From an uncultured Nitrososphaerales archaeon (GTDB lineage: Archaea > Thermoproteota > Nitrososphaeria > Nitrososphaerales > JAAOZN01), in assembly GCA_938029515.1 (NCBI GenBank), contig CALJAQ010000085.1, positions 1 to 11,601 of the forward strand: a stretch of DNA of 11,601 nucleotides. The letters run 5' to 3'. The notes below the pieces were generated by a model. The model searched no databases, was not told the DNA's origin, and was given only the letters and a program-made list of their open reading frames with translations. Each line of letters begins with the position of its first letter. Positions within the stretch are counted from its first letter, which is position 1. Position numbers and translations under genes: made by a program. Below are positions 3,544 through 9,928 of the stretch, one piece after another.

Positions 3544-3550
3544 TTTATTA
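3544..3550 (+). promoter_or_regulatory. TATA-like box for the queT transcript
   Basis: TTTATTA lies about 26 nt before position 3573, immediately 5' of a strong hairpin that begins at 3575. This would put the transcription start at the foot of the hairpin and give a leader of about 65-70 nt before the queT Shine-Dalgarno region. Assignment rests on sequence and spacing only. Confidence 0.4.
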
Positions 3551-3574
3551 GATGCTTCCTTTAAACCCTTATGC

Positions 3575-3639
3575 TAGGCGGGTGAGTGGGGGCACCTCCA
3601 CCCGTTCCGCCTAATAAACCCCGGGTTAAGGAGGTGGGT
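3575..3639 (+). promoter_or_regulatory. Structured queT leader, candidate translational riboswitch
   Basis: TAGGCGG (3575-3581) pairs perfectly with CCGCCTA (3607-3613). Inside it, 3586-3591 pairs with 3596-3601 (one G-U) around a GCAC loop, with G-C and wobble pairs and one A-C mismatch between the two stems, giving a nearly continuous hairpin. Its 3' arm contains CACCTCC (3593-3599), the exact complement of the downstream GGAGGTG (3630-3636) that serves as Shine-Dalgarno site. The hairpin and the anti-SD pairing are therefore mutually exclusive, or the CACC part could form a loop contact with the SD. A short second repeat, AACC (3617-3620) with GGTT (3624-3627), sits between them. Bacterial queT genes (COG4708) are often controlled by preQ1 riboswitches, but this leader does not resemble the classes I know. 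A queuosine-precursor sensor is inferred only. Confidence 0.45.
3630..3636 (+). promoter_or_regulatory. queT Shine-Dalgarno site (GGAGGTG)
   Basis: GGAGGTG matches the archaeal 16S 3' end (CACCTCC) fully. It lies 3 nt before GTG 3640, rather close, and before the reading frame's first conserved residues. The same seven bases are complementary to 3593-3599 in the leader, so access to it could be gated by RNA folding. Confidence 0.6.
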
Positions 3640-4133
3640 GTGTTAAAAGTAGGAGTGTTGCAGAAGCTTCGCTCTTCGCTTCTCTCTATGCTATTGGTGT
3701 TCTTGCGCTTCTGCCTATAAGCTTCGGTGTATTTCAAGTTAGGGTTGCTGATGCTCTTATCCCACTCTCTATTCTTAGGGGTTGGCCTGTGGTTTTAGGT
3801 GTGGCGTCGGGGAACTTGGTGGCGAACGCCTTGGGTAGCCCATTCGGTGCGGTAGATATTGCAGGCGGGACTGCTGCTAATCTCGTCGCATCTTACCTCG
3901 CTATGTGGGTTGCTCGGCTTCGATTCAGAGGCTCTTGGCTGCTCGGATGCACCTCTGCTAACATTGTGGTAAGCTTTATAGTAGGTGGGTATATAACTTT
4001 GCTCACCCAGATTCCTTTGAGTTCACCTTTGTGGGAGCTGCCTATCATAGGTGTGTTAATAGGTTCTACAGTTTCAATCAACTTTATAGGTTATCTTCTG
4101 GTGAAGGCGCTTAGGTTGCGGATGGTTAAGTAG
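3640..4133 (+). CDS. queT: QueT-family membrane transporter, start unresolved (possible frameshift)
   Basis: Small integral membrane protein resembling QueT, the presumed substrate-binding component for queuosine precursors; in archaea it may bring in bases for archaeosine (7-deazaguanine) modification of tRNA. The N-terminal signature 'LYAIGVLALLPISFGVFQVRVADAL' type segment (3684-3758) is clear, then 'NALGSPFGAVDIAGGT' and about five hydrophobic helices, ending 'LLVKALRLRMVK'. The full frame gives about 163 residues, normal for the family. Oddity: that frame opens after TAA at 3627-3629 but has no ATG, GTG or TTG until GTG at 3789, which would remove the conserved first third. GTG at 3640, just after GGAGGTG (3630-3636), lies in the other frame and joins the conserved frame only if one A is added at AAAA (3645-3648). 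Missing base, ribosomal slippage or a non-standard start are all possible. It ends 2 nt before the kinase gene. Confidence 0.8.
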
Positions 4134-8671: not shown

Positions 8672-9928
8672 TTAAGGGTTAACTGCACTCTTAGCAGATA
8701 TCTTAGCCTGCAGTATATGCTTATGCTCATCTGGGTGGGGAGCGTTTTGCAGTATAATTAAAGGCGTTTCATTCTTCATCAGCACACCGCTTAATGCGAA
8801 GAACCAGATCGAAGCCGGTATGAGCATCTTCGCGTCAGGCGCTTCGATGTTTATCAGCTTCGTTAAGGGGTCAAATCTAACGAAGCTCTCTTCACCTAAG
8901 CTCTGAGTGAGTAGGCTGAGTATTATAGGTAAGGTTATATCTAGGGGCCTTCTGAATATGGTAACATTCATAGTGTTCTCAAGCTCCTCGATGAACTTTA
9001 AACCTATCCGACCTACCGTTTCTTCATCTTGTATGGTTGAAGCTACAGCTCTTACGAACGCTTGATTCACGCCATCTGGATCAAGAAGCTCAAGCGCGTC
9101 TTCACCATCCTTTAAAGATAAGATGGTTGATATGTTCTGCAGAGGCATAGAGATAGACCAGAGCCTTTTAAACAATCCGGTTGAAATTAATGTGTTAACT
9201 TCTGTTGAAGGTATAAAGACACCTCTACCAGTCACCTCCTCAGCTATAATGATAGTATGTTCGTCAAATAGGAAGACATTTAACCCAAGCGGGTATCTGA
9301 CTACCCTAACGTCAAAGCCTGGTAGCAACTCGCCTTCACGCCAATCTTCACCGTAGCTCCAAAGTCTAATTATCTGAAGTTTTACGTCGTTGAGGCGTGC
9401 GTTGAGCACAGCATCTTTGCACTCACTGAGTACCCTCAACCCCCAGCTACCAACGATACATCTTACAGACGTTCTGGAGAGCGCTATCATCTCCGAGACC
9501 TTCCCAGCCAACGCCTTAGCACCTATTCCCATATACTTGTAGTTCACATAGTCTACAGGCTTCCTAACCTCTTCATATATCTGTCTAAGCCTCCCTATCT
9601 CCTTCTTCATAGCCTTGACCCTCTTTTCTTCGAGTAAGACTAGATTCTCGAGGTTTTCTTCAGGGGGAAGCGCGCGACACCTAGTAGGCTTCTTATTCAG
9701 AAGCTCAGCTAACCCCTTTCTAACCAGCGATCTAACTACAGAATACGCTTTTGTCCGTGGGATCTGCGCGTGGTATGCCAGTTCACTCACTGTAAGCGAA
9801 TCCTGCTTTAGCAACGTGACGTAAGCCCTAGACTCATACTCGCTTAACCCAAAGTTCTCCAACGCCGATCTGACCAACCTAGCTGTCACTCCTCCTATTG
9901 TCACCGTGGTTACTTTATCTAGCAGCAC
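8672..9928 (-). CDS. TrmB-family transcriptional regulator
   Basis: Predicted DNA-binding regulator of 418 residues. Residues about 18-85 form the TrmB winged helix-turn-helix ('LENFGLSEYESRAYVTLL', 'LTVSELAYHAQIPRTKAYSVV', 'LVRKGLAEL'). A charged helix likely to form a dimerising coiled coil follows (about 92-125), then a PLD-like sensor region (about 130-265; 'GSWGLRVLSECKDAVL', 'EEVTGRGVFIP', 'LISTGLFKRLWS'). The last 150 residues are not a domain I recognise. The start taken is GTG 9928. TTG at residue 18 (9877) would match usual family N-termini and has GGAGG about 13 nt upstream, so the protein may be 401 residues. It is first in the minus-strand run with the phosphoesterase (27 nt to its ATG) and ileS, and divergent from the cdvB genes. 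Ligand and operators are unknown; autoregulation and control of the division genes are inferences from position. Confidence 0.85.
   Translation of the reverse strand: MLLDKVTTVTIGGVTARLVRSALENFGLSEYESRAYVTLLKQDSLTVSELAYHAQIPRTKAYSVVRSLVRKGLAELLNKKPTRCRALPPEENLENLVLLEEKRVKAMKKEIGRLRQIYEEVRKPVDYVNYKYMGIGAKALAGKVSEMIALSRTSVRCIVGSWGLRVLSECKDAVLNARLNDVKLQIIRLWSYGEDWREGELLPGFDVRVVRYPLGLNVFLFDEHTIIIAEEVTGRGVFIPSTEVNTLISTGLFKRLWSISMPLQNISTILSLKDGEDALELLDPDGVNQAFVRAVASTIQDEETVGRIGLKFIEELENTMNVTIFRRPLDITLPIILSLLTQSLGEESFVRFDPLTKLINIEAPDAKMLIPASIWFFALSGVLMKNETPLIILQNAPHPDEHKHILQAKISAKSAVNP

Follow-up and report, generated by a model that had tools for sequence, protein, structure and literature searches.

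A pseudoknotted leader of archaeal queT and related genes is a candidate riboswitch for 7-deazaguanine metabolism

The queT locus and its leader

The window, i.e., the whole stretch of DNA analysed here, is a complete 11.6-kb contig (G000:C85) of an archaeal MAG (G000) that is 72% complete, and features a gene that the first-pass annotation of this DNA had taken for a queuosine-precursor transporter. We confirmed this assignment with a clear match to the Pfam profile of QueT (Table 1). The gene is preceded by a short leader in which the hairpin previously proposed at 3575 to 3613 indeed has a perfect outer stem of seven base pairs (here called P1), while the loop of an inner stem (P2) contains the sequence CACCTCC, the exact complement of the gene's Shine-Dalgarno (SD) sequence GGAGGTG. 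The expected TATA-like box lies upstream of the hairpin, and from its position the transcript is predicted to start at ca. 3570 to 3575. The same annotation had suggested that two mutually exclusive folds are encoded in this leader, but P1 is compatible with the pairing of the SD and an overlap with this pairing is seen for P2 alone. The alternative folds are therefore P2 and a loop:SD pseudoknot, and their overlap in the window is small, comprising a single nucleotide (C3599).

Table 1. Elements of the queT leader in the window (positions refer to the full 11.6-kb stretch).
Feature	Position	Strand	Remark or evidence
TATA-like box A, TTTATT	3544..3549	+	34 nt upstream of P1
P1 5' strand, UAGGCGG (conserved core GGCGG, 3577-3581)	3575..3581	+	pairs with 3607-3613; G-C replaced by C-G, A-U and U-A in relatives
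Conserved unpaired junction, GUGA	3582..3585	+	first G in 135/135 and U in 133/135 parsed copies (the parser partly demands both)
P2 5' strand, GUG	3586..3588	+	covarying 3-bp inner stem with 3599-3601
Anti-SD, CACCUCC (P2 hairpin loop, 5' strand of the pseudoknot)	3593..3599	+	complementarity to the SD; energies with own and swapped SDs
P2 3' strand, CAC (C3599 shared with the pseudoknot)	3599..3601	+	covariation
Conserved unpaired CCGUU (CCGWU)	3602..3606	+	conservation in the alignment
P1 3' strand, CCGCCUA	3607..3613	+	covariation; pairs with 3575-3581
A-rich linker and CCCGG (consensus A-N-AAA...CCCGG; CCCC-AAAA in type 3)	3614..3624	+	conservation in the alignment
Shine-Dalgarno sequence, GGAGGUG (3' strand of the pseudoknot)	3630..3636	+	energies with own and swapped SDs
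queT reading frame, QueT transporter (PF06177)	3642..4133	+	Pfam profile, 78.3 bits

Taken by itself, the window sequence provides modest evidence. A 7-mer complementary to the SD arises in 0.7% of shuffled leaders, and single-sequence folding of the leader gives a result no better than that of its shuffles (z of -0.08, with 87 of 200 shuffles as good). Since folding of the single sequence gives no signal, the case for the motif is a comparative one, and the comparison with relatives described below raises it far above chance.

The start of the queT frame in the window is unusual in that no ATG, GTG, or TTG is found between the in-frame stop at 3627 and position 3789. A relative with 86% identity (L031) has one extra base between the SD and the gene as well as an in-frame GTG. 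The remainder of the window gene appears to be under selection, with 18, 9, and 57 differences by codon position, and its odd start may come from a consensus error, a rare start codon, or a frameshift.

A leader motif shared across one archaeal phylum

Across 300 sampled genomes of the order, we found QueT in 29 genomes and at a total of 30 loci, 25 of which have a full copy of the leader. Twenty-four of these were aligned with MAFFT (alignment A2) and used to train a covariance model, R1, while L017 was kept out of this first alignment because its leader duplicates that of L015. Among the other queT loci, L008 contains only the 3' half of the motif, L025 and L026 carry a variant type that was located by R1, and no motif was found at L004 and L010. 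The invariant columns of A2 spell GCGG, a U after the next G, CCG, U, CCGC, A-N-AAA, and CGG, with the G preceding the conserved U being nearly invariant. The window leader, itself part of the training set, matches R1 at 3574 to 3642 with 66.9 bits and an E-value of 2.0e-14 per genome.

We then used R1 on samples of a single archaeal phylum, that of the window, whose genomes are mostly MAGs in many contigs. At E <=1e-3, with E-values that are to be taken as rough, the motif of ca. 65 nt was detected in 56 of the 400 genomes sampled from the class and in 78 of the 398 sampled from the phylum, which amounts to 132 distinct genomes given that two (G000 and G012) are common to both lists. The 149 matches of the model (71 and 78) reduce to 141 distinct contexts, of which 136 could be parsed; four failed at the 5' stem (L062, L008, L078, and L081) and a second match in L070 (E of 1) was left unparsed as spurious. 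For counts of core conservation, we additionally removed a degenerate second copy in L019 (n = 135), and these counts rest on copies that had been selected by R1 and the parser. Six genomes have two copies of the motif each. The copies appear to fall into at least three structural types that are hallmarked by a GCGG-type P1, a GCGC-type P1, or a CCCC-AAAA variant (type 3).

Covariation supports both stems

The first-pass annotation had proposed to collect such leaders for a covariance model and had made its reading depend on conservation or covariation of the pairings among orthologues. Both are present, and compensatory changes are seen in P1, in P2, and in the pairing of the loop with the SD. 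In A2, 97.8% of the cells in P1 (5 bp) and P2 (3 bp) are paired, and the covariation score of 0.333 compares to 0.130 in shuffled alignments and at most 0.061 when the structure was slid along the alignment. A weaker measure in this alignment is how many pairs have changed on both sides (four), which 62 of 500 shuffles equalled, while all other measures were equalled in at most 5 of 500. RNAalifold predicted P1 and P2 unaided, together with a G-U pair closing the end of P1.

A further alignment (A4) comprises 78 copies from the phylum, 75 of them distinct, that are outside the training of R1 but were aligned by it and thus lean towards the modelled structure. Here, 97.5% of stem cells are paired and five pairs show two-sided changes; not a single one of 500 shuffles equalled any of five measures, the slid controls reached only 40% to 62% paired cells, and RNAalifold again recovered P1 and P2. 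The last pair of P1 is switched from G-C to C-G in 5 of the 75 distinct A4 copies and, when all 135 parsed copies are considered, in 9 of them. At L027/L058, one place that had been fetched twice, a change in column 27 is matched by compensating changes of its partners in P2 (C16-G27) as well as in the pseudoknot (G27-C). An additional helix of CCG with CGG was considered and rejected, because A2 shows no covariation for it and type 3 has lost its GG. The leader thus combines a conserved and covarying 5' structure with a conserved unpaired core like that of a ligand pocket, as would be expected of a riboswitch, though the parser partly demands the letters of this core.

The P2 loop follows the Shine-Dalgarno sequence of its own gene

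The loop of P2 complements the SD of its own gene even where both strands have changed, as seen for ACAUCUC/GAGAUGU (L012 and L013), ACCUCG/CGAGGU (L058), UUUCCGAC/GUCGGAAA (L143), CCAAC/GUUGG (L026), UUCCCU/AGGGAA (L080), and CCUCCCA/UGGGAGG (L005). Across 69 distinct loops, the mean pairing energy is -11.4 kcal/mol with the own SD and -9.1 kcal/mol with swapped ones, a difference that was reached in none of 5,000 permutations. A median of 23% of the SDs of other copies nevertheless pair better with a given loop than its own, because SDs are so alike. When we limited the comparison to 18 stringent, mutually different loops, own SDs still had the advantage (-9.3 versus -6.5 kcal/mol), with 0 of 20,000 permutations as good on energy and 2 and 3 of 20,000 on helix length, while no advantage of the own SD was found for three of these representatives (L076, L025, and L082). 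Swaps confined to single families gave the same picture, with 1 of 20,000 permutations as good in f25 (34 loci), 92 of 20,000 in f27 (13 loci), and 0 of 20,000 in f11 (28 loci, part of the copies of this family).

A helix of at least 4 bp between loop and SD region is possible in all 136 parsed copies. The best such helix covers none, one, two, or all three of the 3' nucleotides of P2 in 12, 75, 28, and 21 copies, respectively, and on the basis of these base-pairing patterns a competition between P2 and the pseudoknot seems plausible.

Promoter placement

Upstream of P1, the A+T content of 132 contexts peaks at 0.80 at a distance of ca. 30 nt. TATA-like hexamers in the 90 nt before P1 are similarly placed, with 91 of 124 matches in these contexts starting 26 to 40 nt upstream. 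Archaeal promoters keep a usual spacing between TATA box and transcription start, and this spacing together with the position of the boxes predicts that the transcript begins just before P1. In the window, the predicted start is therefore upstream of 3600, the position beyond which a start would have excluded the hairpin according to the first-pass annotation.

The motif precedes genes of 7-deazaguanine transport, synthesis, and processing

We assigned the first downstream gene of all 141 contexts using profiles built from representatives and verified these with Pfam and NCBIfam. The most common gene by far encodes QueT (105 contexts), followed by QueE (18), an orphan membrane protein family (10), a DUF5591/ArcS-like protein (4), and QueC (2), while two contexts stay without assignment due to a contig end (L162) or a spurious weak match (L070). 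Pfam and NCBIfam confirmed QueT for the window, L150, and L159. QueE models are the top NCBIfam matches for L036, L055, and L076, yet below their curated cut-offs; QueC was found at L121 with 212 bits; and L080 gave DUF5591 with 56 bits plus partial matches to ArcS. At L065, the motif heads an operon of queE followed by a fusion of a glutamine amidotransferase with QueC (GAT-QueC) of 488 aa. Where the genes can be named, those linked to the motif serve 7-deazaguanine transport, synthesis, or processing. QueT/QrtT proteins are described as salvage transporters of queuosine precursors (PMC11130926).

Wider gene content was searched in 48 of the 132 switch genomes picked to span the gene contexts. 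QueC (E <=1e-12) is present in 36 of them, and 29 of these have it on the strand of the motif with a start no more than ca. 1.5 kb further downstream (by hand count); the exceptions are G001, G037, G045, G051, G138, G080, and G052. QueC was not found at this threshold in the other 12 of the 48. Nine of these have queT behind the motif, namely G000, G002 (98% complete), G008 (99%), G022, G426 and G463 (both 100%), G512, G547, and G572, which fits salvage, and three have the DUF5591 gene there (G044, G027, and G014). A looser search for QueC in G000 gave four weak PP-loop-like matches marked as exceeding the Pfam cut-off, which three of them do only together with frame neighbours, and we read these as probable other PP-loop enzymes. 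TGT was detected in 45 of the 48 genomes, mostly in open frames of ca. 500 to 560 aa as is the length of the archaeal enzyme; it was not found in G026, G076, and G129, and it is weak or partial in G071 and G138. QueA was found in none of the 48, while 9 of 14 controls including E. coli and B. subtilis were positive. This gene content is consistent with preQ0 being imported or synthesised for archaeosine and not for queuosine.

The orphan membrane proteins are 239 to 245 aa long (L046:1568-2284, L032, L044, L051, and L052), and the L046 protein has no match to a Pfam or NCBIfam family. The family includes 65 homologues, one of which matches Pfam PF07155, and QueC is encoded ca. 1 kb downstream in all six genomes with this gene context that were covered. 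The protein is a candidate 7-deazaguanine transporter. Kinship with QueT was considered as well, but a profile comparison giving 13% probability over 19 columns is unconvincing. As a separate observation, G001 encodes a second, diverged QueT (33% identity; L004, G001:C30:4282-4734) directly before QueC that has no motif, and the other QueT copy of this genome carries it.

Comparison to known RNA families

The leader had been described as unlike the preQ1-I, -II, and -III riboswitches, and covariance model searches of 24 of the 132 switch genomes, again picked to span gene contexts, bear this out with no match above cut-off. None of the 24 reached the gathering score of RF00522 (preQ1-I) or RF01054 (preQ1-II), each of which was passed by one control genome, or that of RF02680 (preQ1-III), a weaker negative in that no control passed either. 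Weak matches at E <=1 occur in nine, four, and two genomes for the three models, respectively, and all of them, including 16 matches to RF00522, lie away from the motifs. The preQ1 families also gave no match at E <=10 in the window as a whole, in its leader, or in those of L005 and L150, and a search of the same sequences against Rfam at this threshold returned sub-threshold matches or none. Five such matches hit the window leader, all far under their gathering scores and none to TPP or crcB. In eight whole loci searched at Rfam gathering scores, the sole match was a tRNA of L020 that lies away from the leader, and none of the leaders was hit. No archaeal preQ0, archaeosine, or preQ1 riboswitch came up in a literature search whose coverage excludes most subscription journals.

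PreQ1-II (also known as COG4708 RNA) has a pseudoknot between hairpin loop and SD at the ribosome-binding site, and its bacterial copies likewise precede queT-type genes. The archaeal motif differs from it by its core, by having no visible P4 hairpin, and by residing in hosts without QueA (0 of 48). PreQ1-I is a very small aptamer that forms an H-type pseudoknot with an A-rich stretch before the SD strand, and the archaeal core of GCGGGUG...CCGWUCCGC...CCCGG departs from its consensus. PreQ1-III, another pseudoknot that senses 7-deazaguanines and occurs in the context of queT, has a model of 102 positions compared to the ca. 65 nt of the archaeal motif. As small pseudoknots that sequester the SD, preQ1-I and -II would work in a similar way, though the archaeal motif is no member of these families by the tests that we ran. 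Like TPP, the crcB riboswitch, whose ligand is fluoride, resembles the motif in being a leader element found beyond bacteria but has unrelated genes and ligands. In 2010, crcB was reported from both bacteria and archaea as only the second class, next to TPP, to extend beyond a single domain (PMC2864571). Bacterial queT sometimes lies behind preQ1 switches (PMC5372724).

A putative translational riboswitch and its alternatives

The first-pass annotation had envisioned a ligand- or temperature-sensing leader for 7-deazaguanine uptake. Its first half has gained support as a riboswitch candidate from the conserved core, the covariation, the SD pseudoknot, the promoter placement, and the gene context, while temperature sensing is less favoured in view of the many highly conserved positions that are not part of a stem. 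The window leader is probably one instance of an archaeal cis-regulatory RNA, a candidate riboswitch that would control translation in response to a 7-deazaguanine metabolite, with preQ0 as the likeliest ligand. We infer that preQ0 or a close relative would bind the conserved core (GU, CCGWU, and A-N-AAA...CCC) and stabilise both P1 (GCGG:CCGC) and the loop:SD pseudoknot so that the SD is hidden, ribosome binding blocked, and translation lowered in a feedback OFF response. The free RNA would instead form P2 and leave the SD exposed, enabling production of the import or synthesis proteins. It is the logic of feedback that makes us favour this direction of control, which is as conditional as the choice of preQ0. 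We further hold it to be reasonably likely that the motif represents an archaeal riboswitch class, the first one for preQ0/archaeosine metabolism, in which a ligand-stabilised pseudoknot sequesters the SD. Such a class would comprise no fewer than three structural types and occur in many families of a single archaeal phylum.

The same RNA could respond to another ligand of the pathway such as archaeosine base, preQ1, CDG, or guanine. Its genes span import, preQ0 synthesis (QueE and QueC), and DUF5591/ArcS-like functions, so that gene context pins down the pathway but not which of its metabolites is sensed, and the placement of some bacterial queT genes under preQ1 switches (PMC5372724) also speaks for this option. 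Against it, the lack of QueA in all 48 genomes makes queuosine synthesis via preQ1 unlikely, and genomes without a QueC match retain the switch on queT as fits an imported base; overall, we regard a ligand other than preQ0 as unlikely. Control by a protein is a different matter: the leader might be bound by TGT, ArcS, or a dedicated repressor, or be a tRNA-like substrate of TGT, given that a protein might recognise the conserved unpaired core and that a motif found before several genes and twice in six genomes might be served by a trans-acting factor. A regulator of the TrmB family is indeed encoded in the window (8672-9928, opposite strand), but this gene lies ca. 4.5 kb past queT with unrelated genes in between, and a compact pseudoknot that includes the SD is typical of translational switches for small ligands like preQ1-I and -II. 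We therefore consider protein-mediated control improbable.

An RNA thermometer or a leader that masks the SD constitutively without any ligand would be compatible with the helix of at least 4 bp between loop and SD region that is available to all 136 parsed copies. It would not need non-stem positions as conserved as P1, however, nor a gene context that, the orphan membrane protein aside, is confined to one pathway, and such a mechanism is thus very improbable. Even less would we expect the motif to be a DNA element like an operator or part of a promoter: some segments are nearly invariant in sequence, but the way in which both stems and the loop:SD helix are kept by compensatory changes, as well as the fixed place downstream of a TATA box and the end at the SD, point to RNA.

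To our knowledge, few riboswitch classes are known in archaea. If the preQ0 riboswitch is real, a compact class with more than 100 copies would offer a testable case of RNA-based control over archaeosine, a hallmark tRNA modification of archaea, and would mean that archaea sense 7-deazaguanines by means of an RNA that does not resemble the preQ1 families of bacteria. Membership in its regulon would then flag new genes of the pathway such as the one for the orphan membrane protein.

Variant, truncated, and tandem copies

Type-3 motifs, in which CCCGG is replaced by CCCC-AAAA, were seen at six loci. At L079 to L082 they precede a DUF5591 protein that stands alone and is related to one part of ArcS, and at L160 and L161 they precede QueT. 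Viral contigs contain 38 stretches that fit two patterns of the motif, but their top R1 score of 15.5 bits led us to take them as chance matches. Two copies from one genus (L008:1421-1486 and L078:1079-1143) have lost the 5' half of the motif and show an identical replacement, TTTGACGAAAGATTAAG, despite different downstream genes; this may be due to an insertion, recombination, or an assembly artefact. At L019, a full motif (1185-1248) is located ca. 175 nt upstream of a degenerate second copy (1360-1450) that has a long run of C ahead of queT.
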